Of a DNA stretch of 64,000 bases, positions 24,068-61,095 are shown piece after piece. The DNA is from an uncultured Kordia sp. (GTDB lineage Bacteria; Bacteroidota; Bacteroidia; Flavobacteriales; Flavobacteriaceae), in assembly GCF_947489565.1 (NCBI RefSeq), contig NZ_CANLEA010000010.1, positions 1 through 64,000 on the forward strand, in the 5' to 3' direction. Both the position numbers and the translations under genes were made by a program. Position 1 is the first letter of the stretch. Each line of letters begins with the position of its first letter. Under the pieces are notes generated by a model, which saw only the letters and a list, made by a program, of their open reading frames with translations, did not search any database and was not told the origin of the DNA.

Positions 24068-24073
24068 GTTTTT

Positions 24074-36654: not shown

Positions 36655-36664
36655 TCTTCTAGTT

Positions 36665-37528: not shown

Positions 37529-37538
37529 TCTTCTATGT

Positions 37539-38366
37539 ATGAAACATCCTGAACTTATCGTAAAAATTCCTGAACCTTGTCATGAAGATTGGAACAAAAT
37601 GTCTCCGACTGAAAAAGGTAGGTTTTGTAAAGTCTGTACCAAAGAAGTCGTTGATTTTACCGCAAAAAGTGATGAAGAAATTATCAATCATTTTAGCAAT
37701 CATGGAAACTTATGTGGACGCTTTCAGACTACACAACTCAATAGAAAACTAATTGCAGACCGGAAGAAACGCAATCATTGGTTATCCTATGCTGCAACAT
37801 TACTGTTACCGATGACTGTATTTTCGCAAGGCAAACCCAAAATGACTGAAAAGGTTACAAAAACGGAGCAATTGGATACGTATAACTTTACCCGATTGCA
37901 TATAGGTTCTCTCGATAGAAAAGCTAAAAAGAAGATTCAAAAAGATACACTCTCCATCACAGGAATCATTTTGGACGAAACTAAAATACCTTTTCCTGGC
38001 GCAACAATTCAAATAAACGGAACCAATACAAAGACTTCCACAGATTTTGATGGAAACTTTTCACTACAAGTGACTGTTGGAGATATTCTATTGGTAAGCT
38101 ATGTAGGTTGTGAAAGTCAAGAAGTAAAAATATTAGCAGATAAAACAGTCTACAAGGTAATTTTGAAGCCAGGAGAACCTTTAGAAGAAGTTATAGTTGT
38201 GGCTGGACAAGCTGTAAAACTTAGTGGTGTTGCGGGAGCTGCGATTGCTATAGATGGAGATAAACTTACAACTAATCAAGAAAAAAAGAAGTCAATTATT
38301 ACTTCTTTAAAAGAAAGTTTAAAAAAAATAAAACCAAAAAAAGCTTCAAAAAATAAGAAAGAATAG
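37539..38366 (+). CDS. Cys-motif / CarboxypepD_reg-like protein, paralogue 3
   Basis: 275 residues from the ATG at 37539. N-terminal module as in paralogue 1 (identical IPEPCHEDWNKMSPTEKG, then FCKVCTKEVVDFT), membrane helix and CarboxypepD_reg-like domain (ITGIILDETKIPFPGATIQING). After the sandwich comes a hydrophobic VVAGQAVKLSGVAGAAIAIDG stretch recalling the plug start of TonB-dependent receptors. The Lys-rich tail (KKIKPKKASKNKKE) differs from the Arg-rich tails of the others. It is last in the tandem set; function unknown. Confidence 0.85.
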   Translation: MKHPELIVKIPEPCHEDWNKMSPTEKGRFCKVCTKEVVDFTAKSDEEIINHFSNHGNLCGRFQTTQLNRKLIADRKKRNHWLSYAATLLLPMTVFSQGKPKMTEKVTKTEQLDTYNFTRLHIGSLDRKAKKKIQKDTLSITGIILDETKIPFPGATIQINGTNTKTSTDFDGNFSLQVTVGDILLVSYVGCESQEVKILADKTVYKVILKPGEPLEEVIVVAGQAVKLSGVAGAAIAIDGDKLTTNQEKKKSIITSLKESLKKIKPKKASKNKKE

Positions 38367-48096: not shown

Positions 48097-48276
48097 TTAA
48101 TAAGCACAAAATGCGCTCATAGAACAATTTAACGGATTGATAGTCGCACACGCTGCACGTATAACCGAAGTCGAAACGGTTGATCCACCTAATACTGATG
48201 TAACTTCTTTATTAGACAATTCAGCGACAACTGACTTCTTTAATTCTAACATATTTGATTTTCTATTTTTTTTCAT
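48097..48276 (-). CDS. Small GG-leader Cys/Ser/Thr-rich precursor peptide (lanthipeptide-like)
   Basis: 59 codons. MKKNRKSNMLELKKSVVAEL leads a leader ending in SVLGG (residues 27-31). The core STVSTSVIRAAC begins a 28-residue segment with three Cys and seven Ser/Thr, as expected for thioether-forming peptides; NCBI-style annotation calls such proteins class I lanthipeptide. The leader has the LKK-x3-A-L-S-x2-E pattern of Bacteroidetes precursor families. The gene is preceded (48302-48327) by a 26-nt element also found before the peptide gene at 53024-53224. No LanB, LanC or exporter is near. Modification is inference. Confidence 0.75.
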   Translation of the reverse strand: MKKNRKSNMLELKKSVVAELSNKEVTSVLGGSTVSTSVIRAACATINPLNCSMSAFCAY

Positions 48277-48301
48277 AATGATAAAAGATTAAAATAATTT
48301 T

Positions 48302-48327
48302 CCTACTCTATTAGCTTTTCGGATTCC
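48302..48327 (-). promoter_or_regulatory. Conserved upstream element of precursor peptide gene (copy 1)
   Basis: CCTACTCTATTAGCTTTTCGGATTCC on the plus strand, 26 nt before the peptide ATG, with a GGCCGTT box further upstream (48348-48354). It matches 53245-53270 with three differences in 26. Confidence 0.5.
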
Positions 48328-48466
48328 GCTATAAAAAGAATGTTTTTGGCCGTTAACAATTCTTTTCAAAGGAAATTAAAAGTGTAAGAAATGACACGTG
48401 AGCCGACAAGGATTGACAAATTTTGAATCCTCCCGATTATGATTGACAAAGCGTTATAAGCGTAGA

Positions 48467-49618
48467 CTAAGAGTCTTTGGAAAACTTTTGTAGATATGCC
48501 GTTGGAGACATGCCCGTTTTCTTTTTGAAAGTTGTATAAAATGAAGAACGATTGTTAAATCCTGTTGCATCAATAATTTCATTAATATTCATTGTATTCG
48601 TACTATCAGACATTAAGTTGATGGCTTCGTTAATACGATAGTTATTTACAAATTCGAAGAAATTTGATTGAAAATACTCATTTATTATTTGTGAAGTATG
48701 ATGTCTGGAAAGATTTAATAAATCTGCCAGTTTGTTTAGTGTGAGTGTATGATCTAAATATACTTTTTCTGTGACCATTAAATCTTCTAACTGCTGCTTC
48801 ATCTCCAGTGCAAAAGATTCTAGCATTCCATTTTTACGATATTTTATGTACGGAATGATTTTTTTTCCTGAAAAAATATCGGGTTGCATAAAGCTAAAAT
48901 ACGAAACAACACCTATAAATAAGACGATACAATAGCCAATAATATAATCGCCTGTAATGGTCATTAATCTAAAATAATTCAACACAAAATATAAGGTAAA
49001 GGCAAACACATACGCAGCAAAACAGACTAATAAACTTGCGATCCAAAGCTTCTTTTGAGTCGAAGGTGTTTCTTCCTTGTATTTGTAATATTCTCTAGAT
49101 ATCAATCCGATATAAAAAAACATGATGAAAATAACGATGATAATCACATACTCTCTATACAACTTAATCAGAGTAATATCGTGAGAAAACACGGTAGTTC
49201 TTAAAGCTCGAATTTTTTCTGAAGCTGGCAATACATAAAAATTTCCATAAACTACTAAAACAGACACTAATGGAATTGCATGCAAACTATCTTTTAGCGT
49301 TAATTTCTTTTGATACAACACACGACGAATGTATAAGTACAATAAGGAACCATAGGAAATCCAAGGAATCAAATTGGTAAATATAAAATGCGGATGGTAT
49401 ACGCCGCCATTTGTAGCCCAATAAGAACAATTGTAAAGTAAATTGTATGAAAATAAAAGTATAAATACGCCAAAAAGTCTATTGGCAACTTTATCGCCTT
49501 TCCGCTTTAGAAAAAATAAAATTCCTAACATGAACGCTTGAAAAGAGAATGCAAAAAAAAGCAGAATCCATATGTCTATTTGAGGTGTGATCACGATAAA
49601 GTATTTTTCATAAAACAA
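48467..49618 (-). CDS. Membrane-bound AraC family regulator (7TM-HTH)
   Basis: 383 residues. About seven membrane helices in residues 12-245 are followed by an AraC helix-turn-helix domain (about 290-380) with LNLSRHHTSQIINEYF and ATGFNNRSSFYTTFKKKTGMSP. This one-component class is common in Flavobacteriia. It is a paralogue of the gene at 54884-55999: the first helix (AFMLGILFFLKRKGD) and the HTH are almost the same. Signal and targets unknown; precursor peptide genes flank it. Confidence 0.9.
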   Translation of the reverse strand: MFYEKYFIVITPQIDIWILLFFAFSFQAFMLGILFFLKRKGDKVANRLFGVFILLFSYNLLYNCSYWATNGGVYHPHFIFTNLIPWISYGSLLYLYIRRVLYQKKLTLKDSLHAIPLVSVLVVYGNFYVLPASEKIRALRTTVFSHDITLIKLYREYVIIIVIFIMFFYIGLISREYYKYKEETPSTQKKLWIASLLVCFAAYVFAFTLYFVLNYFRLMTITGDYIIGYCIVLFIGVVSYFSFMQPDIFSGKKIIPYIKYRKNGMLESFALEMKQQLEDLMVTEKVYLDHTLTLNKLADLLNLSRHHTSQIINEYFQSNFFEFVNNYRINEAINLMSDSTNTMNINEIIDATGFNNRSSFYTTFKKKTGMSPTAYLQKFSKDS

Positions 49619-49798
49619 CTACATTAGTAAGTTAGCCAAAAAAGTAATTCAATGCTATTTGTAAGAAAAGAAATTAATATGAATTTTATTTAAAAGCTTG
49701 AAACTGTCTAAAAATGCAGCTTATTTTTTGTTTTTAGTTATTTAGAAATCAAATTGAAATTCATTGCCAAGCTCTTCATTTGAAAAAATATAGATGCA

Positions 49799-49838
49799 TA
49801 AAAAAATCGTCTGTAAATTTTACTTTATAGACGACTCT
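49799..49838 (-). terminator. Hairpin terminator of PL7 gene
   Basis: TCGTCTGTAAA and TTTATAGACGA pair over 11 positions (one G-T). Reading on minus, a T-run follows. Confidence 0.75.
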
Positions 49839-49860
49839 TTATGTAAGAACTAAGTTTTGA

Positions 49861-51171
49861 TTAGTGTGTAATGCTTAAATTTTTAATTCGAACAATTCCG
49901 TTAGAACCTGTAAAACTTGCACCTTGAACCGATTGCAAATAGTTTCCAACTTTAAAATAATTACCCGAAGTATTTGTTCCGATAGCTTGTGAAAAGATTT
50001 CGTTATTGCCATCAAAAAGTTTTACAACACCATTATTATAGCTAATTTTAAATGTATAATTCGTATTTAATTGATAACCATTATCAATAATCAAGCTGCT
50101 TCCTTGTACATCTTCGGTTATATAACCACTAATTTTCAATCGTACACCTCCAGAAGTTTGATTTTCGTCTCCTAAGAATTGTACTCGAATCACATCATCT
50201 ACAGTATTGGAAGGTCCGTGAATTTGGGCAAAACATAAAATTCCACCATTATTATCGGCATCTTGCGGCAATCGATCTACTCTAACTGTAAACGTCATGG
50301 TATTATTCCCAGAACCGCCATTCCAACTAGCAAGATTTCCATTGCTCATTTCTCTTAATTCCACTCTCGGATTTCCAGAATTTGCCGATCCGCCTAAACC
50401 TCTATAGCATTTAAAATACGTCCATTCGCCATCCGTATAAAAATAATTTGGATCGTTATACGTAGCAAAAGTTTCTCCTGTAGAAGCCAATACATTATCT
50501 CTGTAGGTTGCATTTGATCCTGGACTTCCTGTAAAACCATTCAGTTTCCAGTTATTCGATGTCAATCCTAAAACATCACCTGGAGAATCTCCATTTCCAG
50601 TCCCTGGATCTGTACCGCCACTTCCAAAAATTTCTGCTTCTGTAAGACTATTCCAAGAGCTTGAAGAATTTCCAAAACAAGAAATACGCACATAACGAAC
50701 ATTTACTGCATTAAAACTATAGGTTTCCAAGCTATTCGTGTTTCCACTACTTCCACTGCTCTTTCGATCTACGACCGTTTGTAAATTAGATGTACTGGTT
50801 CCTACTCGAATCTTAAAATAGGCTTTTCTTTGATTTCCCTTATACCAAGCCAATTTTACAGAAGAAACTGATTTCACAGATCCTAAATCGTAGGTAATAT
50901 ACTTTCCGTTATAGCCATTGGAAGACCATCTTGTTCCTAAGTTTCCGTCTAATGTATTCTGTGGAACATTTCCATCATCACCATTGGCAGAAACACTGTT
51001 GGGTATAATTTGACCATTTTTTGCGAGTATAGGAATTTTCCCGTTTTCAATAGCTGCATCTTCGTCTAGCATTATTACTTCATCTTTGGAGCAAGAAGCA
51101 CATAGCAAAAAGCATAATAATAGCATGCATTTAATAGTGTTGTAAAATGAATTCATAAAAAATTGTTTCAT
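49861..51171 (-). CDS. PL7 alginate lyase with F5/8 type C carbohydrate-binding domain
   Basis: 436 residues. The lipobox CASC (Cys27) precedes a F5/8 type C (CBM32-like) domain (about 55-185), a Gly-rich linker and a PL7 alginate lyase fold (about 200-436). The PL7 signature triad is visible: RVELRE (RxELRE), FAQIHG (QIH) and YFKVGNYLQ (YFKAGxYxQ). The enzyme depolymerises alginate by beta-elimination at the cell surface. It is alone here: no SusCD-like pair is adjacent. A GGTAAACCA palindrome lies 30-70 bp upstream and may be its operator. Confidence 0.93.
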   Translation of the reverse strand: MKQFFMNSFYNTIKCMLLLCFLLCASCSKDEVIMLDEDAAIENGKIPILAKNGQIIPNSVSANGDDGNVPQNTLDGNLGTRWSSNGYNGKYITYDLGSVKSVSSVKLAWYKGNQRKAYFKIRVGTSTSNLQTVVDRKSSGSSGNTNSLETYSFNAVNVRYVRISCFGNSSSSWNSLTEAEIFGSGGTDPGTGNGDSPGDVLGLTSNNWKLNGFTGSPGSNATYRDNVLASTGETFATYNDPNYFYTDGEWTYFKCYRGLGGSANSGNPRVELREMSNGNLASWNGGSGNNTMTFTVRVDRLPQDADNNGGILCFAQIHGPSNTVDDVIRVQFLGDENQTSGGVRLKISGYITEDVQGSSLIIDNGYQLNTNYTFKISYNNGVVKLFDGNNEIFSQAIGTNTSGNYFKVGNYLQSVQGASFTGSNGIVRIKNLSITH

Positions 51172-51200
51172 GGTTAAAATTTTTGGTTGATATTATTCTT

Positions 51201-51239
51201 TTGGTAAACCAATCTGGTAAACCAAATTGGTTTACCAAT
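51201..51239. promoter_or_regulatory. TTGGTAAACCAA operator cluster upstream of alginate lyase
   Basis: TTGGTAAACCAA (51201-51212) is followed by a perfect 23-nt palindrome (51215-51237, arms TGGTAAACCAA and TTGGTTTACCA). The three half-sites lie 30-68 bp upstream of the lyase ATG. The symmetric TGGT-N2-ACCA form resembles GntR/FadR-type sites, and a GntR-type repressor (AusR) is known to control alginate genes in Zobellia. The regulator itself is not in the window. Confidence 0.55.
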
Positions 51240-51386
51240 TATACAACAATTTATATACATTGAAAAAATGTAAAACCGTAAAATTGAGAGGGTTTTATAA
51301 TGCAGTTCGTTTTGAGACAATTTATTGCATACAAAATTCTCTTTCTAAGAAAAAAAGAAAGAGTCTAGAATTCGATCAATATGATA

Positions 51387-52136
51387 TTAGACTAAATAAA
51401 TAATAGCAATCGAAAGAAGAAGAATGCCATATACTAGTGTAAAAGCTTTTCCTGAAATTTTACTTCCCATTTTTGCTCCGAAGAAATTCGCAATAAAATA
51501 AGTTCCAAAAAGAATTCCTACCAATTGCCAATCAACAGGACTTTCATAATTATACTTTAAAAATGCACCATAACTCACCGGTGGAATTAAAATGGCTAAG
51601 CTCAACGCACGTGCATATTCTTTTTTTAGTTTAAAAACGCCTATTAAAATTGGCACCATTAATACACCGGCTCCAATTCCAAACATGCCTCCTAAAATTC
51701 CTGTACAAGCTGCCAAAATTCCTATCCAATACACGGAAACATGATCTTTGTGTGCTTCTTTTGCATTTTTTTTCAGGTAAGATTTAAATTGTAACAATGC
51801 AATGAGGATTAACAATACTGCGAAATAATATTTTAAGTCCGTTTCTCCGATATAAAAGGCAAGCTCGGCTCCAAAATATGAAAACACGCAATAGGAAATC
51901 ACGCCTACAGCAATATTGAGCCATTGTTGTTTTACATATCCGTAAAGTGACATTACACCAAGCAAACTCATAGGTCCCAACATCATGGTAAGTACATTAC
52001 CTTGGGCAGCTAATTGTGACATTCCGCAGTATAAAACTAAGAAAGATACTAAAAACGGACCGCCGCCAATTCCAGCAAAACCTCCAATATAACCAATTAC
52101 CAAACCAAGAAGAACATAAATAAGCGGATCACACAT
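51387..52136 (-). CDS. TauE/SafE family sulfite exporter-like permease
   Basis: 249 residues and about eight membrane helices. The duplicated TauE motifs are GYIGGFAGIGGGPFLVSFLVLY at the start and GILGGMFGIGAGVLMVPIL in the second half. The family exports sulfite, sulfoacetate or other organic anions; the true substrate here is unknown. It is transcribed toward the alginate lyase gene with 215 bp between them, so it is probably separate. Confidence 0.93.
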   Translation of the reverse strand: MCDPLIYVLLGLVIGYIGGFAGIGGGPFLVSFLVLYCGMSQLAAQGNVLTMMLGPMSLLGVMSLYGYVKQQWLNIAVGVISYCVFSYFGAELAFYIGETDLKYYFAVLLILIALLQFKSYLKKNAKEAHKDHVSVYWIGILAACTGILGGMFGIGAGVLMVPILIGVFKLKKEYARALSLAILIPPVSYGAFLKYNYESPVDWQLVGILFGTYFIANFFGAKMGSKISGKAFTLVYGILLLSIAIIYLV

Positions 52137-52211
52137 GCAATAAAATTTGGCTGCAATTTACTTTAAAAGTTTAGTTTTTAATACGATCCTGAAAAAAACC
52201 ATTCCAAAAAA

Positions 52212-52239
52212 ATAACTCCAAGCCGAAGCCTGGAGTTAT
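52212..52239. terminator. Hairpin terminator
   Basis: ATAACTCCA (52212-52220) and TGGAGTTAT (52231-52239) flank AGCCGAAGCC. An A-run to the left gives a T-run on the minus strand. It lies after the decayed peptide gene. Confidence 0.7.
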
Positions 52240-52264
52240 CCAACTGTAGTTAAATTAATTAAAA

Positions 52265-52444
52265 TTAATACATGAAATAAGCAATCGTCGTATACTCTGA
52301 GGGATTCATAACAGCATACTATCCTGCCAATACTGAGGTGGAATATGTAGATTCTGATGTATCTGAATCTACTCGCTTCTAAATATTATCGGCTATCGCA
52401 GCTTTCTTAATTTGTGATTATGAGTCTTTGATTTGCTTTTATAA
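52265..52444 (-). pseudogene. Decayed precursor peptide gene, relative of 48097-48276
   Basis: Read on minus to the TAA at 52265, one frame gives an AIADN-stop-KRVDSDTSE leader part and a STYSTSVLAG-stop-YAVMNPSEYTTIAYFMY core. This aligns without gaps over about 45 residues to the intact peptide (VAELSNKEVTSVLGG, then STVSTSVIRAACATINPLNC and on to the end). Two in-frame stops and a frame change near the start kill it, and all three core Cys are changed to Tyr or Phe. No ATG remains. It sits directly downstream of three intact peptide genes on the same strand. Confidence 0.65.
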
Positions 52445-52487
52445 TGCTATGAATTTAAAACTTAACTCTGTTACAACAAACATTTCA

Positions 52488-52730
52488 TTATACTGGACAA
52501 GTGATAATTGTTTCAGTCACACATCTTCTCGGATTAATTGTCTCTTCTCCGCATAATGGTCCGCAAGTATTTGCGCAGGTATTCGCACATGTTGCAGCTA
52601 CTGTTGGTTCTGGGCAACATGAATGTCCATGACATGTATATGTGCCTCCACCTCTAAGCTGACGCTGAATTAAATGTGCTACAGTTGATTTATTTATGTT
52701 TAGCGATGAATTTTTGATTCGTTTTTTCAT
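52488..52730 (-). CDS. GG-leader Cys-rich precursor peptide
   Basis: 80 codons. The leader MKKRIKNSSLNINKSTVAHL ends in LRGGG (residues 25-29). The ~51-residue core has nine Cys, beginning TYTCHGHSCC, with a near-repeat CANTCANTCGPLC, and ends TCPV, as does the next peptide upstream. Leader pattern SLNINKSTVAHL matches L-x-[IL]-x-K-S-x-[VI]-A-x-L of class-I-lanthipeptide-like precursors. It is one of three tandem genes (52488-53224) on minus. Modification enzymes are absent nearby. Confidence 0.8.
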   Translation of the reverse strand: MKKRIKNSSLNINKSTVAHLIQRQLRGGGTYTCHGHSCCPEPTVAATCANTCANTCGPLCGEETINPRRCVTETIITCPV

Positions 52731-52768
52731 AATGTTTCGGTTTTAATGATTTTTAAAAAATTATACTT

Positions 52769-52963
52769 TTATACGGGACACGTACGAAACGTTTCCGTAA
52801 ATGTGCAAGAACGATAGGTAACTAAACAAAGAATTGGAATAAATGTTGGACATAAATGTGGTACCGCTGATCCTCCTTTTATCATATCAACTTTTTTGTC
52901 TGATAAACTTGCAATGTTAGATTTATTAATCTTTAACGTTTTTTCTATCTTTTTTTTCTTCAT
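52769..52963 (-). CDS. GG-leader Cys-rich precursor peptide
   Basis: 64 codons. Leader MKKKKIEKTLKINKSNIASL ... IKGG (residues 28-31); core SAVPHLCPTFIPILC onward with four Cys, ending in TCPV, the same ending as the neighbouring 80-residue peptide. The core is hydrophobic with several Thr, which suits thioether or disulfide cross-links. It lies 38 bp upstream of the 80-codon gene and 60 bp downstream of the 66-codon gene. A CCTACT box about 22 nt before the ATG recalls the conserved upstream element of the peptide loci. Confidence 0.8.
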   Translation of the reverse strand: MKKKKIEKTLKINKSNIASLSDKKVDMIKGGSAVPHLCPTFIPILCLVTYRSCTFTETFRTCPV

Positions 52964-53023
52964 GATGGTTTGTGTTTAATGTTGCCTACTTTTAGTTTTG
53001 GCGTTATTTTTAATTTTTAAGAC

Positions 53024-53224
53024 TTAACAAGTCGTATTTGGACATTGATAACAGTTCGTTTGTAATATGGTAATACAATCTTGTGTTACACAGTCTTCTG
53101 TTTCACAGTTCAATCTGTCTTCAGACTCAATTCCGATAGTTCCTCCTTTTAAATATGAAGTTTCAAAATTTGAAATCACAGACTTATTCAACGATAAACT
53201 TGATTTTAACTCTTGTTTTTTCAT
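53024..53224 (-). CDS. GG-leader Cys-rich precursor peptide
   Basis: 66 codons. Leader MKKQELKSSLSLNKSVISNF ... YLKGG (residues 24-28); core with seven Cys arranged CETEDCVTQDCITILQTNC, then YQCPNTTC. The repeated C-x4-C and C-x3-C spacing with Asp/Glu between is unusual. It is the first of three tandem genes, and the 26-nt conserved element lies 21 nt upstream. Leader style is as in the two following genes, so all are probably handled by the same distant enzymes. Confidence 0.8.
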   Translation of the reverse strand: MKKQELKSSLSLNKSVISNFETSYLKGGTIGIESEDRLNCETEDCVTQDCITILQTNCYQCPNTTC

Positions 53225-53244
53225 GATAAAATATATTAGTAATG

Positions 53245-53270
53245 CCTACTCTAATAGTTTTTCGGCTTCC
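53245..53270 (-). promoter_or_regulatory. Conserved upstream element of precursor peptide gene (copy 2)
   Basis: CCTACTCTAATAGTTTTTCGGCTTCC on plus, 21 nt before the ATG of the 66-codon peptide gene, with GGCCGTT at 53287-53293. 23 of 26 positions match copy 1 at 48302-48327, while the nearby sequence is unrelated. Confidence 0.5.
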
Positions 53271-53505
53271 ACTTTTAGATATAAATGGCCGTTTATTTCT
53301 TTCATAAAGTAAATCAGAAAAGTCTGTAAAAACATCCTAACCGATAAAGGTTGACAAAATTAGATTTGAGCTTTTTTTGGAACTCTTTGTAGTTGTTTTA
53401 TAGCGCGGGTTTTAAAAGTTAAATCATGGTTTTTTAAAAAATCAATGTATTTTTGTGAGTTTGGTATTCATATTGTATACACCTATAAAACCTAACAAAT
53501 AGCGT

Positions 53506-54699
53506 ATGAAAAAATTACTACTTACCATTAGTATTTCTTTAGTATTAATTGCCTGTGGCAGTGTCAAAAAAACACAAGAAGCACTGAATACAGGAGATTA
53601 TGACATGGTGATTAACAATGCCATTAATCAGTTGAAGAAGAATAAAACTCGAAAAAGAAAACAGCAATATGTACATTTGTTAGAAACTGCATATTCAAAA
53701 GCTGTAGCACGTGATTTGGCAGAGATTAAATTCTTAAAGAAAGAAGGAAATCCAGAAAAGTTGGAAACGCTGTATACTATTTATACAGGATTGGACAACC
53801 GTCAAGAATCGATTAAACCTTTGCTCCCTTTACCTATTTTGAAAGAAGGAAGAAATGCACGGTTTGCAATGGAAGATTATTCAGAAGAAATTATTGATAC
53901 AAAAAATAAATTGACCGAACATTTATATGAAAGGGTTTCGCAATCAATGCTTTTAAACAAAGGGAATAAATACGAATACCGAAAAGCCTTTGAAGATCTA
54001 CAATATATTGATGAGATTTCTCCAAATTATAAAAATGTGCAGCGACTCATGGAAGAAGCACATGCCAAAGGAACTGATTTTGTACTTGTGCAACTCAATA
54101 ATGCAACTGACAAGGTAATTCCTAGACGTTTGGAAGATGATTTATTGAACTTTAATACGTATGGATTGAATGATATGTGGACTGTATATCATGGAAATGA
54201 AATTGCAAAAATCAACTATGATTTCGGACTTATCTTAGATTTTAGAGATATTCAAGTTTCCCCTGAGCAAATTAGAGAAAAGCAAATCATCAAAGAAAAA
54301 GAAATCAAAGATGGCTGGAAATATGCACTTGACAACAATGGAAACGTATTAAAAGATAGTCTTGGGAATGATATTAAAGTAGATAAATTTAAAACGATTC
54401 GTTGCGAATTGTATGAATTTACACAATTCAAAGCTGCACAAGTTAATGGACAAGTTCGTTTTGTTGATTACAGAACCAAACAATTAATTGAAGCATTTCC
54501 AATTAGTACAGAATTCATTTTTGAACATGCATATGCTGATTTTGATGGAGATAGAAGAGCTTTGGACGACAGATATCGTGATTTAATTTCTGTACGAGCA
54601 ATACCATTTCCTAGCAATGAGCAAATGATTTACGACTCTGGAGAAGACATAAAAGCACGACTCAAAGCCATTCTTACACGGAATAAATTTAGGCGTTGA
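53506..54699 (+). CDS. Lipoprotein with helical repeats, unknown function
   Basis: 397 residues. The lipobox LIAC (Cys17) makes it a lipoprotein. The N-terminal half is TPR-like helical (ALNTGDYDMVINNAINQLKK, EYRKAFEDLQYIDEISPNYK). The second half is a mixed alpha/beta domain with VDYRTKQLIEAFPISTEFIFEH. It resembles a group of Bacteroidetes lipoproteins of unknown role. Divergent from the peptide genes. A long inverted repeat follows the stop. Confidence 0.8.
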   Translation: MKKLLLTISISLVLIACGSVKKTQEALNTGDYDMVINNAINQLKKNKTRKRKQQYVHLLETAYSKAVARDLAEIKFLKKEGNPEKLETLYTIYTGLDNRQESIKPLLPLPILKEGRNARFAMEDYSEEIIDTKNKLTEHLYERVSQSMLLNKGNKYEYRKAFEDLQYIDEISPNYKNVQRLMEEAHAKGTDFVLVQLNNATDKVIPRRLEDDLLNFNTYGLNDMWTVYHGNEIAKINYDFGLILDFRDIQVSPEQIREKQIIKEKEIKDGWKYALDNNGNVLKDSLGNDIKVDKFKTIRCELYEFTQFKAAQVNGQVRFVDYRTKQLIEAFPISTEFIFEHAYADFDGDRRALDDRYRDLISVRAIPFPSNEQMIYDSGEDIKARLKAILTRNKFRR

Positions 54700-54732
54700 A
54701 CCTAATCTCATTATTTAATACAAATATCAAAT

Positions 54733-54791
54733 CGAGCACAGTTGAGATGCAGTGGAAACATTCGTTTTCTTTAGTTTCTCAACTGTGCTCG
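54733..54791. repeat. Long inverted repeat (15-bp arms)
   Basis: CGAGCACAGTTGAGA (54733-54747) and its exact complement TCTCAACTGTGCTCG (54777-54791) enclose a 29-base loop. It may end both convergent transcripts (53506-54699 and 54884-55999), but no T-run follows, so it looks more like a mobile or dispersed element. Confidence 0.65.
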
Positions 54792-54804
54792 GAATTTCTA
54801 TAAA

Positions 54805-54876
54805 TCTAGTAGCGAAGCAATCTAATATCTAACAGCTAAAGCGGTCTAAAAGTCTAAAAGCAAAGCAAGTCTAAAA
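54805..54876. repeat. AGCNAAGC-ATCTAA word repeats
   Basis: Degenerate copies of TCTAA-AGC-AAAGC words such as TAGCGAAGCAATCTAATATC and TCTAAAAGCAAAGCAAGTCT. The same words occur at 165-183 and 399-457, and inside the 108-bp array at 24074-24727. Confidence 0.6.
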
Positions 54877-54883
54877 ATCTATT

Positions 54884-55999
54884 TCACAAAGCATGCTGAC
54901 TCCGATAGGATTTTGGTGAAATCCCCGTTTTTTTCCGAAAAGCATTGTAAAAGGATGTCCGATTGTTAAATCCTGCAGCATAAATAATTTCGTTAATATT
55001 TAAATCGTTTTGTTTATCCTGTAACAATCGAATAGCCTCGTTAATCCGATAATTATTGACAAATTCAAAAAAATTGACCTGAAAATGCTCGTTAATCAAT
55101 TGCGATGTATGATGTCGTGACATATTCAATTGTGCAGATAATTCATCTAGCGTAAGCGAACTATCTAAAAACAACTTATCGGCTTCCATCAAAGAAATCA
55201 ACTTCTCTTTCATCTCAACAGCAATTGAAGAAGACAAACCGTTATTTTGATACTTTATAAATGGAATCTTTAAAGCGCCCGAAAATATACTAGGCTGCAT
55301 AAAACTAAAATAAGAAACAATTCCTATAAAAAATACCATCGCATAGCCTATCAAATAATCGTTAGACATGGTCATGAGTCGTAAATTGACCAATACAAAA
55401 TAGAGCAAAAAAACCAAAGCATATCCAGTAAAACACAGGCCTAAAGATTTAATCCAAACCCGTTGTGCTTCGGTAACTTTATCTTTTTCTTTTCTATACA
55501 AAAAGTAAATTTTAACAGCATATACCAACATTAAAAGTGTCACTACATCTACCATATATTCTCTGGGAATTGGCCACCAATTTACATACTCAGCATAGTT
55601 TCCTGTACTATCAATTTCATGTTTGAGTTCTATCGGTAATACATAATAACTCCCAAACACAAAAAAGATCCAGACTAAGGGAATGGCATGCCGTAAATCG
55701 CGCCAAGTAAATGGATTTTTATTCAGCACACGCTTCATATATATATATAACAAAGGACCATACAATACCCAAGGAATAAAATTGGTAAATGACATGTGCT
55801 CTATGTAATAGCCATCGTAGGCAGACCAATACGCACAGTTAAATAATTGATTATAAGAAAATAGCAGTAAAAAAACGCCAAATATACTATTGGCAACGCG
55901 ATCACCTTTGCGCTTTAGGAAAAACAAAATTCCGAGTACGAAGGCTTGTATGGCAAATGCAAAAAACAGCATTATCCATATATTAATGGTAGTTTTCAT
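54884..55999 (-). CDS. Membrane-bound AraC family regulator (7TM-HTH)
   Basis: 371 residues. About seven membrane helices (residues 5-240) and a C-terminal AraC helix-turn-helix with LNMSRHHTSQLINEHF and AAGFNNRTSFYNAFRKKTGISP. It is a paralogue of the gene at 48467-49618, and both begin with a shared IWxLLFFAF-type helix. The pair brackets the group of three peptide genes, which may only be chance. Targets unknown. Confidence 0.9.
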   Translation of the reverse strand: MKTTINIWIMLFFAFAIQAFVLGILFFLKRKGDRVANSIFGVFLLLFSYNQLFNCAYWSAYDGYYIEHMSFTNFIPWVLYGPLLYIYMKRVLNKNPFTWRDLRHAIPLVWIFFVFGSYYVLPIELKHEIDSTGNYAEYVNWWPIPREYMVDVVTLLMLVYAVKIYFLYRKEKDKVTEAQRVWIKSLGLCFTGYALVFLLYFVLVNLRLMTMSNDYLIGYAMVFFIGIVSYFSFMQPSIFSGALKIPFIKYQNNGLSSSIAVEMKEKLISLMEADKLFLDSSLTLDELSAQLNMSRHHTSQLINEHFQVNFFEFVNNYRINEAIRLLQDKQNDLNINEIIYAAGFNNRTSFYNAFRKKTGISPKSYRSQHAL

Positions 56000-56123
56000 C
56001 GGCAGTAATTTTTAAGAACGAATTTTGATTGATTGAATGATGTAAATCAATGTACAAAACAGCCCGTAAAATCTGTCTTAAAAAACTCTTAATTCTTATC
56101 CGCGAAAAGTTAAAAAAGAAAAA

Positions 56124-56519
56124 TTACACAAATTGCTCCAGTGGAATTGCGTTGATTTGACTGTGAGAAGCATGCGCAACCGTAATTCCATTTTTAACAA
56201 TAATTAATTGTGGACTTTCATGCCAAACCTGAAAACGTGCAGCAACCTCTTGTGAAATTGGACGAAAACTCAATAAATCTAAATAATACACTTTCATTTG
56301 GTTTTCCTCCAAATCATACGAACTTTCAAACTGTTTAATTACCATTCTGCTAATTCCGCAACGTGTACTATGCTTAAAAATCGCAACAGGTTGTGTTTTC
56401 GATTCTTTAACAATAGTATCTAATTGTGACACATCTGTCAAACGTGTCCATTGCAATTTTGAAGGCTCAGGAGTTTCTGATGTTCCAGAACTTCCAAATA
56501 ATTTATTGAATATTCCCAT
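56124..56519 (-). CDS. ytxJ: Bacillithiol-system redox protein YtxJ
   Basis: 131 residues, a single thioredoxin-like domain of the YtxJ family (DUF2847). The site is one Cys in KHSTRCGISRMVIKQFE, and the later SFRPISQEVAARFQVWHESPQLIIVKNG is conserved. YtxJ is a predicted monothiol bacilliredoxin that removes bacillithiol from proteins, so the organism should make bacillithiol, as many Bacteroidota do. Single gene, divergent from clpB. Confidence 0.9.
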   Translation of the reverse strand: MGIFNKLFGSSGTSETPEPSKLQWTRLTDVSQLDTIVKESKTQPVAIFKHSTRCGISRMVIKQFESSYDLEENQMKVYYLDLLSFRPISQEVAARFQVWHESPQLIIVKNGITVAHASHSQINAIPLEQFV

Positions 56520-56678
56520 AAGTATCTGTAAATTTAAAGTATCAGTCGTATGCTTTTTTTAAAACTTGCACGAATGTCAAAATGTCTTGTAAATACTAGC
56601 ATTAACCGTCATTTTGTCTTGTATTCTGAATTGGAATAACTATTGCAAAATTACTATAAAATTACAGAATTGAACGCT

Positions 56679-59279
56679 ATGAATTTTAATAATTATACCA
56701 TAAAATCACAAGAAGCTGTACAGCAAGCACAGCTTATAACGCAAACATACGGGCACCAACAAATTGAAAATGAACACCTTTTCAAAGCCATTATGGATGT
56801 TGATGACAATGTATTGCCATTTTTATTGAAGAAACTTAATGTAAATATCACTATGCTTTCACAGATTTTAGAAAGCACGTTAAATAGTTTTTCAAAAGTA
56901 AGTGGCGGAAATATTATGTTGTCGCCAGCTACTGGAAAAACTCTGACAGATGCAAGCATTGTAGCAAAAGAAATGAATGACGAATTTGTGTCTACTTCGC
57001 ATTTAGTGTTAGCTATCTTCAAATCTAATAGCAAAATAGCGCAGATTTTAAAAGATCAAGGTGTTACAGAAAAAGAATTAAAAGCAGCCATTCAAGAACT
57101 GCGAAAAGGAGAACGTGTGACTTCTGCTTCTGCTGAGGACACGTATAATTCGCTTAACAAATATGCTAACAACTTGAACCAATTGGCAAACGATGGAAAA
57201 CTAGATCCTGTCATTGGTAGAGATGAAGAAATCCGTAGAGTCTTGCAAATTCTTTCTCGTAGAACCAAAAATAATCCAATCTTAGTAGGTGAACCTGGAG
57301 TTGGTAAAACCGCTATTGCGGAAGGATTAGCGCACAGAATTATTCAAGGTGATGTTCCCGAAAATTTAAAGGACAAACAAATCTATTCGCTCGATATGGG
57401 CGCATTGATTGCCGGTGCAAAATTTAAAGGTGAATTTGAAGAACGTTTAAAAGCAGTAATCAAAGAAGTCACTTCTGCAGATGGCGATATTGTCTTATTC
57501 ATTGATGAAATCCACACTTTAGTTGGTGCTGGTGGCGGACAAGGTGCTATGGATGCCGCAAACATCTTAAAACCTGCTTTAGCACGAGGAGAATTAAGAG
57601 CGATTGGTGCAACAACCTTAGACGAATATCAAAAATATTTTGAGCAGGATAAAGCCTTAGAACGTCGTTTCCAGAAAATTACTGTGAGCGAACCAGATAC
57701 TGAAAGCGCGATTTCTATCTTAAGAGGGATCAAAGAGAAATATGAAACACATCATAAAGTTCGTATCAAAGACGAAGCAATTATTGCCGCAGTCGAACTT
57801 TCGCAACGTTATATTACAAACAGATTTTTACCCGATAAAGCCATCGATCTAATTGATGAAGCTGCTTCTAAATTACGCATGGAAATCAACTCAAAACCTG
57901 AAGAATTGGACGTTTTAGACAGACGTATCATGCAATTAGAAATTGAGATTGAAGCCATCAAACGCGAAAATGATGAAGCAAAACTGAAATCGTTGAATGC
58001 AGAATTGGCAAATATTAAAGAAGAACGCGATGAGATTTTCTCCAAATGGCAATCTGAAAAAGATGTTGTAGATCAAGTACAAGCTACCAAAGAAGCCATT
58101 GAAAATTACCGTGCAGAAGCCGAACGTGCCGAACGCGAAGGAAATTATGGAAAAGTAGCTGAATTGCGTTACGGAAAAATTAAAGAAGCGCAAGGACAAT
58201 TAGATGTCTTACAGAAAGAACTAGAGACGCAGGAAGAAAACGCGCTGATTAAAGAAGAAGTAACGAATGAAGATATCGCCGAAGTAGTAGCAAAATGGAC
58301 GGGAATTCCGGTAACTAAAATGTTGCAAAGCGAACGTGAAAAGCTATTACAACTCGAAAAAGAATTGCACAAACGTGTCGTAGGACAAGAAGAAGCTATT
58401 GTTGCCGTTTCAGACGCGGTTCGTAGAAGTCGCGCAGGACTACAAGATGCCAATCGTCCTATTGGTTCGTTTCTATTTTTAGGAATGACAGGTGTTGGAA
58501 AAACCGAATTGGCAAAAGCACTTGCCTCCTATTTGTTTGACGATGAAAACGCGATGACACGTATTGATATGAGCGAATATCAAGAATCGCATTCGGTGAG
58601 TAGATTGGTTGGTGCGCCTCCAGGATATGTTGGCTATGATGAAGGCGGACAATTGACAGAAGCCGTAAGACGCAGACCGTATTCAGTGGTTTTACTCGAC
58701 GAAATTGAAAAAGCGCATCCAGATACCTTCAATATCTTATTGCAAGTCTTGGATGAAGGACGATTGACTGATAATAAAGGAAGAGTTGCCGATTTTAAAA
58801 ATGCTATCATCATTATGACTTCAAACATGGGAAGTCATATCATTGAAGAAAAGTTTAAGGCAATGCAAGACATGCACAGCGCTACAGAAGCTGCTAAAGT
58901 GGAAGTCTTAGGCTTGTTAAAGAAAACGGTGCGACCTGAGTTCCTAAATCGTATTGATGACATGGTGATGTTTACTCCTTTAACACAAGCTGACATCAAA
59001 GAAATTGTGCGTTTGCAATTAAAAAATGTGGTAAAAAGGCTTTCAAAACAGCAAATTACCTTAGATGCTACCGAAGAAGCCATTCAGTATTTAGCACAAC
59101 AAGGATTTGATCCGCAATTTGGTGCAAGACCTGTAAAACGTGTGATTCAACGAAAAGTACTAAATGAATTATCTAAAGAAATTCTAAGTGGAAAAGTTAC
59201 TGCTGAAAGTATTATTTTATTAGATGAATTCAATGATGAATTGGTCTTTAGAAACCAAACAAGTTTGATTGAGAATTAA
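56679..59279 (+). CDS. clpB: ATP-dependent chaperone ClpB
   Basis: 866 residues from the ATG at 56679; a TTG at 56643 gives a longer frame that is not preferred. It has the Clp-N repeat domain (about 1-145), AAA1 with Walker [11 protein letters not shown] (about 204), the ClpB-specific middle coiled coil (about 400-520) and AAA2 with Walker [11 protein letters not shown] (about 602), plus the C-terminal D2-small domain. This Hsp100 disaggregase works with DnaK in the cytoplasm to rescue aggregated protein. A hairpin terminator follows. Confidence 0.97.
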
Positions 59280-59307
59280 GTAAGATATTCTCTATAAATA
59301 AAAGTAA

Positions 59308-59338
59308 TCAAGAGCAGCTCACAAAAAGCTGCTCTTGA
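59308..59338 (+). terminator. Hairpin terminator of clpB
   Basis: CAAGAGCAGCT pairs with AGCTGCTCTTG around a short loop; a weak T-run follows. The rest of 59339-59631 holds only a doubtful 60-codon minus frame (59345-59527). Confidence 0.75.
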
Positions 59339-59631
59339 TGTTTACTAACAAAGACAGGAAATATTCACATCTCCTGAACTACAAGATTCATACATAAAAC
59401 GCTGTTCGAAAGGCTTTATTTTACAGGGAAAAGTTAAAATTTTGAGAATTCTTTCTGCCAACGAAAGAAAGTTTAAAATAGTATAAAGGCATATAAAATA
59501 GTTTTGAATCGAAAGAAAAGAAGTCATTCAGTGAAATAAATAAAACCTGAATTTTCAATAAAGAATTTACAGTCATTAAAACAATAACTGTAACTTTAAA
59601 AAGTTAAATAATAAACATCTAAAACCAAACC

Positions 59632-60135
59632 ATGTTACAAAGAATAATTTTAAGTACACTTTTGATATTTAGTATTTACGCTCATGCACAAAATGAAAAA
59701 CCAAATAGAGATGCTTTTGTATTAACTGTTGCTGTAGATACTGTCAACTATTACCAACAAGACGTTCCTATTTCACCATATTTTGTAAAAGATAAAATTC
59801 TTCAAATCTATCCTACAGAAAAACTATTTATTGAAACTGAGGTAAAAGCGGATTCTATTCATTCTATGAAAGTTGTCAAAGAAAATTTGAATCCAGAAAA
59901 GACCATTGTTATTGAATTTATTCAAAATGTAAAAGGCAAAAATCATGAAGGAATGATGTTAAAAGTAGACAATCCTTTTGAAAAAGCGTTGCGATACAAA
60001 GCCCTAATGTATATCAATGGTAGAACGGAATGGATTCCAACAAGTATTATTCCTGTCAGACCAAAATTATCGAGTTTTGAAGTTTGGAATGATGTCATTT
60101 TATCGTTGGTTTTAGTCGAATGGAAACTGGAATAA
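59632..60135 (+). CDS. Secreted hypothetical protein, 167 aa
   Basis: Signal peptide about 1-19 (YAHAQ). Mature part is beta-rich with repeated TEVKADSIHSMKVVKENLNPEK-like strands; no named domain seen. Convergent with the peptide genes on minus, 142 bp away. Could be a periplasmic binding or envelope protein; function unknown. Confidence 0.75.
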   Translation: MLQRIILSTLLIFSIYAHAQNEKPNRDAFVLTVAVDTVNYYQQDVPISPYFVKDKILQIYPTEKLFIETEVKADSIHSMKVVKENLNPEKTIVIEFIQNVKGKNHEGMMLKVDNPFEKALRYKALMYINGRTEWIPTSIIPVRPKLSSFEVWNDVILSLVLVEWKLE

Positions 60136-60277
60136 CATTTTTTTTGATTGAGTTGAATATGATGCAATTCCTTTTAAATACTCATAAGCAAAAAAAGATA
60201 GAAGCATATACAAAGCCACACTCCTATCTTTCCTAACTAACTCAAAATTTATAATTATAGTAGGATATAATTCAATA

Positions 60278-60547
60278 CTAATTTTTATTGTATGTACCTG
60301 CACAAGTATCTGGCGCGCAACTTATACCAGGATCCGTAAAACAAGCATCAACCTTCACTGTTTGACAATTTTGATACGGACAGGTTTCTGTATACGGACA
60401 AGTATCCGTAAATGGACATGGACGACCTATGGTTTGTGCTAGTGTATCTGCTGCATTTGCAGTTCCACCTTTGACAGTTCGGGGGCGAAAAGAAGCAATA
60501 TTACTCTTTCCTAAACGCAACTTGACATTCAAATTCTTTTTCTTCAT
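60278..60547 (-). CDS. GG-leader Cys-rich precursor peptide
   Basis: 89 codons from the ATG at 60547; an earlier ATG (60571) precedes the usual MKKKNLN start and is not used. Leader MKKKNLNVKLRLGKSNIASF ends TVKGG (residues 24-28). The core holds CPFTDTCPYTETCPYQNC, then ACFTDP and SCAPDTC: eight Cys in all, and a repeated CPxxTC motif. It is very similar to the next gene upstream (60559-60822), so a tandem duplication. Distant modification enzymes assumed. Confidence 0.82.
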   Translation of the reverse strand: MKKKNLNVKLRLGKSNIASFRPRTVKGGTANAADTLAQTIGRPCPFTDTCPYTETCPYQNCQTVKVDACFTDPGISCAPDTCAGTYNKN

Positions 60548-60558
60548 GATATACTTTT

Positions 60559-60822
60559 TTAAATTTGACAATTAACCATTGATCCACAACCATCAGGAGT
60601 ACAACTGATAATTGGATCCGTATAACAAGCATCTTCTCGCATGGTGATACAATGATAAGGACAGGTTTCTTTATCTGAACAGATATCAGAAGGTTGACAT
60701 ACATCTTGCTCGACAGTAATCGGCGGACTATATGCGATTCCTCCTGTTACTTTTTTACTATTGAAAGAAGCGATCTTATCCTTTCTCAAACGTAACTTCA
60801 TATTCAAATTCTTTTTCTTCAT
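60559..60822 (-). CDS. GG-leader Cys-rich precursor peptide
   Basis: 87 codons. Leader MKKKNLNMKLRLRKDKIASF ... KVTGG (residues 24-28). The core has eight Cys with CQPSDIC, CSDKETCPYHC, ACYTDP and SCTPDGC. Motif order matches the downstream peptide: a CPYxxC block, then ACxTDP, then SCxPDxC. Leader lengths are the same. It is the middle of three tandem genes on minus, 11 bp from the next ATG. Confidence 0.82.
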   Translation of the reverse strand: MKKKNLNMKLRLRKDKIASFNSKKVTGGIAYSPPITVEQDVCQPSDICSDKETCPYHCITMREDACYTDPIISCTPDGCGSMVNCQI

Positions 60823-60891
60823 AGTATTAGATGTATTAGAAATTAATGATTCAACTAAACTAGCAATACGACACCATTTTTTTCAAAAAAA

Positions 60892-61095
60892 TCACTGATT
60901 ATCTACTGGTACTGGCTTGCAATTATCAAATTTAGGATCTGTACATGAACATGTTTCAATTGGGCACAAACTGTTATGTGTTAATGGATCGTCTGAATTA
61001 GCATTGGCGCTTCCTCCTGTAAGTTTTTTAGCATCTAACACAGCAATTACCTTCTTTTTCAATGCCAGCTTTATAGTGAAGTTTCTTTTTTTCAT
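60892..61095 (-). CDS. GG-leader Cys-rich precursor peptide
   Basis: 67 codons. Leader MKKRNFTIKLALKKKVIAVL ... KLTGG (residues 24-28). Shorter core with four Cys (LCPIETCSCTDPKFDNC) that keeps the CTDP box seen in the two following peptides. It is first of three tandem genes. A divergent TetR gene begins 143 bp away. Confidence 0.8.
   Translation of the reverse strand: MKKRNFTIKLALKKKVIAVLDAKKLTGGSANANSDDPLTHNSLCPIETCSCTDPKFDNCKPVPVDNQ

Follow-up and report, generated by a model that had tools for sequence, protein, structure and literature searches.

Seven putative class I lanthipeptide precursors at a Kordia locus belong to a genome-wide pool whose candidate enzymes lie in one distant cluster

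Genes for lanthipeptide precursors usually, if not obligatorily, cluster with those for LanB and LanC. The prochlorosins of marine bacteria have a layout in which one enzyme locus is accompanied by many precursors that share a leader and carry diverse cores. In Firmicutes, the RRNPP systems (Rap-Phr, PlcR-PapR, and NprR) place a TPR receptor gene directly before a small exported-peptide gene on the same strand. Among the closest described pathways, the class I lanthipeptides of Bacteroidetes have LxLxKx5L...GG leaders and include split-LanB clusters of the pinensin type, as presented in the parts of Walker et al. 2020 (PMC7268733) drawn on here. Prochlorosins and synechococsins depend on one promiscuous LanM, with up to 79 SyncA substrates per strain (PMC9872173). 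PMC11118758, in its relevant sections, presents Kordia as a RiPP-rich genus and gives as many as 176 predicted precursors for Bacteroidota genomes, as well as a LanC and a nucleotidyltransferase near precursors of Kordia.

The stretch analyzed here (64 kb of Kordia DNA, referred to as the window) contains seven small genes that an earlier note had described as intact lanthipeptide-like precursors in tandem groups of one, three, and three. All seven open reading frames are present, all on the minus strand and in that grouping, and the claimed GG endings of the leaders and the 3 to 9 Cys of the cores were likewise found (Table 1). In each of the seven, the GG site is followed by a core with both Cys and Ser/Thr. 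A Pfam search of the seven peptides returned two weak, chance-level matches only (E 0.14 and 0.39). In 9 of the 10 other Kordia genomes, precursor genes are found at the syntenic position; in the tenth, G001, a contig end interrupts the locus, and no precursor gene is seen there.

Table 1. Putative precursor genes and membrane regulators of the window.
Feature	Position	Strand	Characteristics
Precursor A	48097..48276	-	59 aa, 3 Cys in core; leader NF038153 E 0.0011, TIGR04149 E 7e-4
Multi-TM membrane AraC-type regulator	48467..49618	-	HTH_18 E 8e-18; several hydrophobic segments
Precursor D	52488..52730	-	80 aa, 9 Cys; leader NF038153 E 0.0019
Precursor B	52769..52963	-	64 aa; leader NF038153 22.7 bits, above 22-bit cut-off
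Precursor C	53024..53224	-	66 aa; leader NF038153 E 0.0013
Second multi-TM membrane AraC-type regulator	54884..55999	-	
Precursor G	60278..60547	-	89 aa; leader NF038153 E 0.097
Precursor F	60559..60822	-	87 aa; leader NF038153 E 0.0011
Precursor E	60892..61095	-	67 aa; leader NF038153 E 0.0054

NF038153, the NCBIfam model for class I lanthipeptide leaders, matched all seven leaders, which exceeds chance (E 8e-5 to 0.097); its cut-off was passed by precursor B, and the other six fell below it. TIGR04149, a model for RiPPs modified by radical SAM enzymes, matched two of the seven, precursor A and precursor B (E 0.011 for the latter), neither of which passed its 25-bit cut-off (19.4 and 15.6 bits). 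For precursor A, TIGR04149 scored slightly better than NF038153, with both models below cut-off. The leader of precursor G matched profile A1, which was built from 64 rows with this same leader among them, at E 2.9e-8. At a loose threshold (E ≤ 10), NF038153 also found matches in 5 of 14 control genomes, none of them above cut-off.

From the spread of the seven genes, the earlier note had suggested a precursor pool extending over the whole genome, and the search for further GG-leader peptides that it proposed was positive. At least 260 precursor genes of the same kind, the window's seven included, lie on 32 contigs of this one Kordia genome; 212 of them were read and 48 are known mainly from profile A1. 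They fall into 158 groups, 103 of which are singletons. A capture-recapture estimate placed the pool at 302, a figure that assumes an independence that its two profiles lack. All four of the genes found by profile A1 alone that lie in read stretches read as precursors (one runs off its stretch), and the remaining 44 of the 48 were counted from the profile alone. The leader match at C38:24232 also reads as a precursor. Of 150 leader matches scored, the first reading covered 148 with their surroundings, and seven of these were set aside as other kinds of gene (three NHLP-like at C5:273-275 kb and four others); 2 of 71 local regex finds were likewise rejected. Counts made under ceilings of 150, 49, and 23 scored matches per genome are lower bounds.

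It had also been claimed that the window lacks genes for LanB/LanC-like enzymes, radical SAM enzymes, and C39 exporters and that the enzymes might be encoded elsewhere. Whole-genome searches for LanB, LanC, and C39 placed none in the window, no radical SAM gene is evident in its list of open reading frames, and LanB, LanC, and C39 were located together in one cluster on another contig (C2). This cluster is composed of LanC, a LanB glutamylation protein, a separate LanB elimination protein, a membrane fusion protein, and a C39-peptidase ABC exporter, and it holds two precursors with the same leader. Its LanB is the sole one in the genome, and its LanC has the WC..CH zinc-ligand pattern. Both lie far from the window genes, and the layout of a precursor beside LanB/LanC was not found in the window. 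The interpretation offered earlier, a genome-wide pool with its enzymes elsewhere, is supported by these results. Other LanC-like genes adjoin single precursors.

Compared to the Bacteroidetes class I lanthipeptides in the parts of PMC7268733 drawn on here, the Kordia set has the same leader motif, GG ending, C39 protease, and split LanB. However, the precursors presented there lie in biosynthetic gene clusters, whereas those of Kordia are nearly all far from LanB, with about 260 or more precursors to one LanB. Compared to prochlorosins, the Kordia pool is alike in its one enzyme locus, its many precursors of shared leader and diverse core, and its marine origin. It differs in using a split LanB plus LanC of class I in place of a class II LanM, in its larger size, in the conservation of orthologous cores across species (at the locus tested), and in its link to sensors. 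The genome resembles the material of PMC11118758 in genus and in precursor abundance, and the parts of that source drawn on here describe neither a single LanB serving the pool, nor the unlinked layout, nor regulator-peptide cassettes.

Exactly one LanB was found in each of the 11 Kordia genomes. Leader matches per genome, which are lower bounds on the pools, numbered from 38 to at least 49 in all 11 Kordia and from 0 to 7 in 138 others. The combination of one LanB and many precursors in every Kordia genome fits a central enzyme set. A leader pool as a family-wide habit was rejected, as 117 of the 138 non-Kordia genomes had no leader match at E ≤ 0.1. The leader is rare outside Kordia and tracks LanB there: LanB occurs in 7 of the 8 genomes with an above-cut-off leader (one of these 8, G087, was counted in by deduction from a tally of 19) vs 7 of the 130 without (Fisher 1.6e-7).

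All 204 read cores behind GG contain Cys, and all have Ser/Thr ahead of a Cys; these core counts leave out 8 of 143 profile-found precursors without GG. Compared to proteins of the same stretches, the cores are enriched 13-fold in Cys and 2.1-fold in Thr. In 188 thinned cores, Ser/Thr occurred more often than expected at Cys-5 and Cys+2 (z 9.1 and 8.1), with relatedness in these composition and spacing tests handled by thinning at 0.6 similarity alone. Purifying selection acts on the orthologous cores, in which Cys, Thr, and Ser are retained best. Pooled dN/dS of orthologs was 0.19 for the core vs 0.26 for the leader, a small gap with synonymous sites near saturation (pS about 0.6). In the window, core dN/dS was 0.03 for precursor B (aligned with 3 other genomes), 0.07 for C (4 others), 0.11 for A (5 other Kordia genomes), 0.12 for D (3 others), 0.15 for F (2 others), and 0.23 for E (7 others), and precursor G is fast, with the most divergent core of the seven (0.45). 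Outside selection motifs, the conserved cells in ortholog cores were 96 of 108 for Cys, 112 of 152 for Thr, 46 of 71 for Ser, and 312 of 652 for other residues.

Judged from sequence, the products of the seven genes are probably processed by a class I lanthipeptide-type pathway with precursor genes spread genome-wide and one conserved cluster. In such a pathway, the C2-type cluster would recognize the shared LxLxKxx[IV] leader, its enzymes would dehydrate Ser/Thr and then close thioether rings onto Cys, and the peptide would be cut at GG during export by the C39-peptidase ABC exporter. We infer that the central LanB/LanC may act on the window's seven peptides and on the whole pool. If so, we would be aware of no larger natural one-enzyme substrate pool in a class I lanthipeptide system, and the pool would be a test bed for the tolerance of LanB for hundreds of cores.

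The same genes might instead encode Cys-rich peptides that leave the cell through the C39 transporter alone, without enzymatic modification and with disulfides or free thiols. GG leaders and a C39 exporter suffice to explain export, and the Cys count of these Cys-rich cores is even in 122 and odd in 82 of 204 (binomial p 0.006), an excess that points rather to paired Cys. Such an explanation is nevertheless unlikely, given that 82 cores do have an odd count and 10 a single Cys, that Ser/Thr are better conserved than other residues and spaced non-randomly from Cys, and that the leader co-occurs with LanB. A second candidate modifier, missed in the first reading, is a class V-like set on contig C16, in which LxmK-like, HopA1, and LanC-like genes and a precursor with the same leader follow one another; the LxmK-like gene scored 64.9 bits, far below the cut-off of 315. 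HopA1, the one member of this set that was sought across genomes, was found in 10 of the 11 Kordia genomes and in none of 49 others, and its distribution thus follows the genus almost as closely as that of LanB. Yet the Kordia genome G003 has 41 leader matches without HopA1, and outside Kordia leaders track LanB while HopA1 is absent from all 49 genomes searched, the leader-bearing G028, G091, G093, and G106 among them. We therefore give little credence to the explanation that this set, or several enzymes, modify the peptides and that LanB is not the main modifier. It seems improbable that a part or even much of the pool consists of TIGR04149-type products of radical SAM enzymes and not of lanthipeptides, as NF038153 matches all seven leaders and TIGR04149 two, the same leader is found inside the LanB cluster, and the single radical SAM gene observed close to a precursor encodes DUF3641. 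This holds even though TIGR04149 is the best NCBIfam match of precursor A and also matches precursor B, both below cut-off, and rSAM-modified peptides are reported in Kordia in the relevant part of PMC11118758.

Some of the precursors are arranged in cassettes, each directly behind a gene for a membrane AraC regulator. The window's two such regulators are part of the arrangement and were missed in the first reading. The first lies directly upstream of precursor A, which is 190 bp 3' of it, and G005 and G008 carry its orthologs at the same place; in all three genomes precursor A follows about 190 bp downstream. The ortholog of the second is about 150-166 bp upstream of the ortholog of precursor C in 5 relatives; in the window, a gene at 53506-54699 (+) separates the two. 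Close members of this multi-TM type occur at the clpB locus only, and the idea of a large family was rejected. Evidence for co-loss of regulator and peptides is mixed: both the regulator and peptides A-D are absent from G003, in G004 the regulator is broken and the peptides look decayed, and G001 and G010 keep the regulator with no precursor beside it.

The window's two regulators have no TPR, and the TPR cassettes are paralogous. For TPR-membrane-AraC regulators, a peptide gene lies just downstream in 24 of 25 read loci of the same genome and in 38 of 38 further cases from four Kordia genomes. All 23 full-length members have a hydrophobic segment within the range of residues 358-462; the TPR part precedes this membrane segment and the AraC HTH and thus probably faces the periplasm. 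Compared to RRNPP systems, the cassettes are alike in having a TPR gene and then a small peptide gene on the same strand. However, the RRNPP receptor is cytoplasmic with no membrane segment, and the Kordia peptides, with their GG leaders and predicted lanthipeptide type, would need no re-import. Structure comparison of the model gave generic TPR matches, with LGN first and Rap and NprR at ranks 31-42, and alone it therefore lends no support to a pheromone receptor.

The regulator may sense or control the downstream peptide, and the pool may at least partly be a signaling repertoire, a receptor-peptide system operating on lanthipeptide-type peptides. We tentatively propose, at somewhat less than even confidence, a genome-scale signaling network with exported class I lanthipeptides as its pheromones, each of which would be read by its own upstream membrane regulator and all of which would be matured by a single LanB/LanC/C39 machine. 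The sensors would consist of a periplasmic TPR or multi-TM part joined to an AraC DNA-binding domain. Such a network would be to Gram-negative bacteria what Rap-Phr and PlcR-PapR are to Firmicutes, but with modified peptides, and the cassettes would constitute a dedicated Bacteroidota peptide-pheromone system with receptor-peptide pairs readable from the genome by tens. Both this proposal and that of a central enzyme are testable in cultured Kordia algicida OT-1.

AraC regulators often control neighboring genes, and it is quite possible, if less likely than not, that the adjacency reflects such ordinary control, with the sensor answering an outside cue and switching on a downstream defence peptide. 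Most precursors indeed have no such regulator, the genes just upstream of them being mostly unrelated to regulators, and the window-type regulator persists without a precursor in two genomes. Ordinary control is made less likely by the fixed order and near-fixed spacing of the 38 sampled TPR cassettes (36 at 79-136 bp) and by TPR and core distances, which correlate (r 0.24, p 0.003), while HTH and core distances do not (r 0.10, p 0.11). Short cores of shared style, moreover, recur in Aquimarina, where the regulator-peptide pairing is also found at LanB loci. In all 11 Kordia genomes, a TPR-membrane-AraC regulator adjoins LanB.

All seven leader-GG peptide genes that an earlier note had placed in the window (precursors A to G) were found there, 7 of 7 on the minus strand. 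The genome comprises 6.42 Mb on 100 contigs, and the window (positions 1-64000) is the start of contig C10. The NCBIfam class I lanthipeptide leader model NF038153 matches all seven precursors with E values of 8e-5 to 0.097, one of the seven passing the curated cut-off; for precursor A, the radical-SAM-modified RiPP model TIGR04149 scores slightly above NF038153. A Pfam search of the seven ORFs gave chance-level matches only.

The same note held that the modification and export enzymes must be encoded elsewhere if the peptides are classical lanthipeptides, and a genome profile search located genes for LanB, LanC and a C39 exporter together on contig C2, where the gene set around LanB is complete. 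Lant_dehydr_N has a single match in the genome. This LanB shares 97% identity with the one in a Kordia MAG and 88-93% with those of seven further Kordia records, which places the organism in Kordia (Flavobacteriaceae). The order LanC, LanB, LanB_C, TPR regulator(s) with peptides, MFP and C39 is shared by 8/8 Kordia-labelled loci.

Features in the window (positions without a contig name) and on other contigs of the same genome
Feature	Location	Strand	Length	Remark
Precursor A	48097-48276	-
Precursor D	52488-52730	-
Precursor B	52769-52963	-
Precursor C	53024-53224	-
Precursor G	60278-60547	-
Precursor F	60559-60822	-
Precursor E	60892-61095	-
Multi-TM AraC regulator	48467-49618
Intervening gene	53506-54699
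Multi-TM AraC regulator	54884-55999
Repeat ORF	24054-24440	-		repeated KSKANLRSLRSLCVYKF-like units
Three tandem paralogs	35812-38366	+
Lant_dehydr_N match	C2:166694-168664
LanC	C2 cluster		405 aa	WC...CH zinc-ligand pattern present
LanB glutamylation part	C2 cluster		759 aa	E 8e-150
LanB elimination part	C2 cluster		302 aa	E 2e-72
TPR-AraC regulator	C2 cluster
Two GG precursors	C2 cluster			leader type as in pool
HlyD-type fusion protein	C2 cluster
C39-peptidase ABC exporter	C2 cluster
L044, class V-like set	C16:131807-137972
L045, nucleotidyltransferase-like	C6:18800-22062			GG precursor beside/near; LanC-like protein(s)
L046, nucleotidyltransferase-like	C27:28220-30679			GG precursor beside/near; LanC-like protein(s)
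L047, nucleotidyltransferase-like	C2:226449-228495			GG precursor beside/near; LanC-like protein(s)
L079, nucleotidyltransferase-like	C4:284378-286062			GG precursor beside/near
L048 and L083	C5:257-275 kb			second C39/MFP export set
NHLP-leader RiPP precursor	C5:257336			TIGR03793 over cut-off
More NHLP-like peptides	C5:273-275 kb			by eye
Second repeat ORF	C27:34969			Lys/Ser-rich

The suggestion of a genome-wide pool of GG-leader peptides also held, as profiles and sequence scans found at least 260 places on 32 contigs. With NF038153 at E <= 10, a loose threshold at which the model also rings in 5/14 control genomes (0/14 over the cut-off), the best 150 of 289 candidates were scored; 148 of the 150 matches were read and 141 kept, which together with two window genes makes 143 precursors. 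A DNA pattern derived from these leaders recovered 107 of these 143 precursors in the retrieved stretches and gave 55 new places, 53 of them clear precursors, while the same pattern had no match on the reversed sequence. A protein-level scan of these stretches added 69 genes, those 53 included, and a profile built from 64 leaders gave 48 further places (best 150 of 482 candidates, all with E <= 3.3e-4), for a total of at least 260 genes. Grouped by strand and neighbourhood, these genes fall into 158 sets, of which 103 are singles, 28 are pairs, 13 have three members, 9 have four, 4 have five and 1 has six. At E <= 0.001, the 64-leader profile gave at least 126 and at least 143 matches in the Kordia genomes G009 and G002 (best 150 scored in each), and 19, 1 and 0 in three other family members (G087, G028 and G049).

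Such a pool is characteristic of Kordia and goes together with LanB. Across 149 genomes, each of 11 Kordia had from 38 to at least 49 leader matches and the other 138 had 0-7; LanB was present in exactly one copy in 11/11 Kordia and occurred in 14/138 others. Among non-Kordia genomes, LanB was found in seven of the eight with an above-cut-off leader versus 7/130 without. None of 14 control genomes rang in these leader and LanB searches.

In 135 cores, Cys accounts for 11.5% of residues, 13 times its level in proteins of the same stretches, and Thr for 12.8% (2.1 times); Lys is scarce. No core among the 204 read behind GG lacks Cys, and a Ser or Thr stands ahead of a Cys in all 204. Ser/Thr are in excess at five residues before Cys and two after (z 9.1 and 8.1; 188 thinned cores). 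Judged from sequence, the cores resemble products that form rings and are under selection. The parity of Cys counts, however, speaks against rings, even numbers occurring in 122 cores versus odd numbers in 82 (p 0.006).

In the clpB region of the window locus, precursor genes are present in 9/10 Kordia relatives; in the tenth (G001), the locus is broken off by a contig end and no precursor was seen there. In seven ortholog families, with synonymous sites near saturation, dN/dS is 0.03-0.45 for cores (pooled 0.19) and 0.13-0.34 for leaders (pooled 0.26), the core ratio being below the leader ratio in families A-E, slightly above it in F and clearly above it in G. Outside the ortholog-picking motifs, Cys was kept in 96/108 cells, Thr in 112/152, Ser in 46/71 and all other residues in 312/652. 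Because of these core ratios and this residue retention, we conclude that single cores at the window locus are conserved between species, not as in a random library.

The largest family among 537 precursor-near ORFs is a TPR-membrane-AraC regulator (25 genes, 19 loci), with TPR and HTH_18 domains in 3/3 members scanned, a hydrophobic segment near residue 400 in 23/23 full-length members and an N-terminal one in 15/23. An AlphaFold model (mean pLDDT 85) predicts a TPR solenoid at 41-338, then a long helix and then the HTH. A leader-type peptide ORF lies downstream on the same strand of 24/25 regulators, 60-150 bp away in 22/25; for comparison ORFs of the same stretches, this spacing occurs in 20/464 and any such ORF within 620 bp in 55/464 (Fisher 1e-23). 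As a guard against circularity, a second sample was taken from a genome search blind to precursors (8 of 16 matches in G009, 12 of at least 23 each in G002 and G003, and six own-genome matches unseen before). Each of these 38 regulators is followed directly by a leader-type peptide ORF, which in 36 cases lies 79-136 bp past the end of the profile match; nine nearest peptides fell outside the first regex and were accepted on reading. The family numbers from 14 to at least 23 per genome in 11 Kordia and 0-4 in 49 others, and one member is close to LanB in 11/11 Kordia. By eye, several own-genome stretches between regulator and peptide start with a short, terminator-like inverted repeat, which suggests a separate promoter for the peptide gene.

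Across 22 Kordia pairs, the distances between TPR domains are correlated with those between cores (r 0.24, p 0.003) and between leaders (r 0.18, p 0.03), correlations that could also come from the shared descent of linked genes; HTH-domain distances in Kordia correlate with neither (core, r 0.10, p 0.11; leader, r 0.12, p 0.13). In Aquimarina, 14 TPR-AraC regulators lie upstream of LanC-LanB, in 6/6 LanB loci, and for 10/14 the first small downstream ORF is a GG-leader peptide, with a single Cys in 8 and a GGSS start in 6 of these 10; this style also occurs behind two Kordia regulators. No such regulator was found at five Lacinutrix, Leptobacterium, Psychroserpens and unclassified Flavobacteriaceae loci or at one Aminicenantes locus.

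The window's two multi-TM AraC regulators show the same arrangement. Precursor A lies 190 bp 3' of its regulator, and G005 and G008 show the same layout. Five relatives have the second regulator's ortholog 150-166 bp upstream of the precursor C ortholog, while in G009 it stands 413 bp ahead of a different peptide; in the window, another gene intervenes. Among the relatives, two retain the window-type regulator without an adjoining precursor, one has it broken and one lacks both the regulator and peptides A-D. At L162, the clpB locus of the close relative G004, the regulator is interrupted by stops, and the neighbouring peptide C has KGR in place of KGG and has lost one Cys, as though regulator and peptide were decaying jointly.

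Drawing on family knowledge and genomic links, we propose that LanB would bind the translated peptide through its Lys-rich LxLxKxx[IV] leader, that Ser/Thr would be dehydrated and LanC would then close rings, and that the C39 transporter would cut at GG and export the product. In the cassettes, gene order and the weak correlation lead us to propose that the upstream membrane regulator may sense the matured peptide or some associated cue.

Among published reports, Walker et al. 2020 describe the leader type (PMC7268733), a K. antarctica lanthipeptide cluster is mentioned (PMC7477175), and Kordia is called rich in clusters (PMC10734526) and RiPP-rich, with up to 176 precursors in Bacteroidota genomes and LanC plus nucleotidyltransferase near Kordia precursors (PMC11118758). 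A Bacteroidales survey notes TPR-domain genes in RiPP clusters and cites work in which domains of this kind bind pheromones (PMC10352776). The comparable one-enzyme pool is that of SyncM, which has up to 79 substrates (PMC9872173). Searches of the open-access literature gave no account of the unlinked Kordia pool as one LanB's substrates or of TPR-AraC/peptide cassettes.

Further RiPP-like loci occur in the genome. The class V-like set of L044 consists of an LxmK-like kinase (below cut-off), a HopA1 protein, a LanC-like cyclase and a GG precursor. Ahead of the set comes a Cys-rich repeat protein of 585 aa, which contains GPTGTxGCT-like units and matches nothing in Pfam. HopA1 occurs in 10/11 Kordia versus 0/49 others. 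Of the LanC-like proteins at the nucleotidyltransferase loci L045, L046 and L047, two are without the WC..CH zinc pattern. The window's repeat ORF is probably repeat DNA and not a gene. The three tandem paralogs have in common an N-terminal part that contains Cys (PEPCHE..W..MSPTEKG.FC..C), as well as a repeat that we take to be carboxypeptidase-like.
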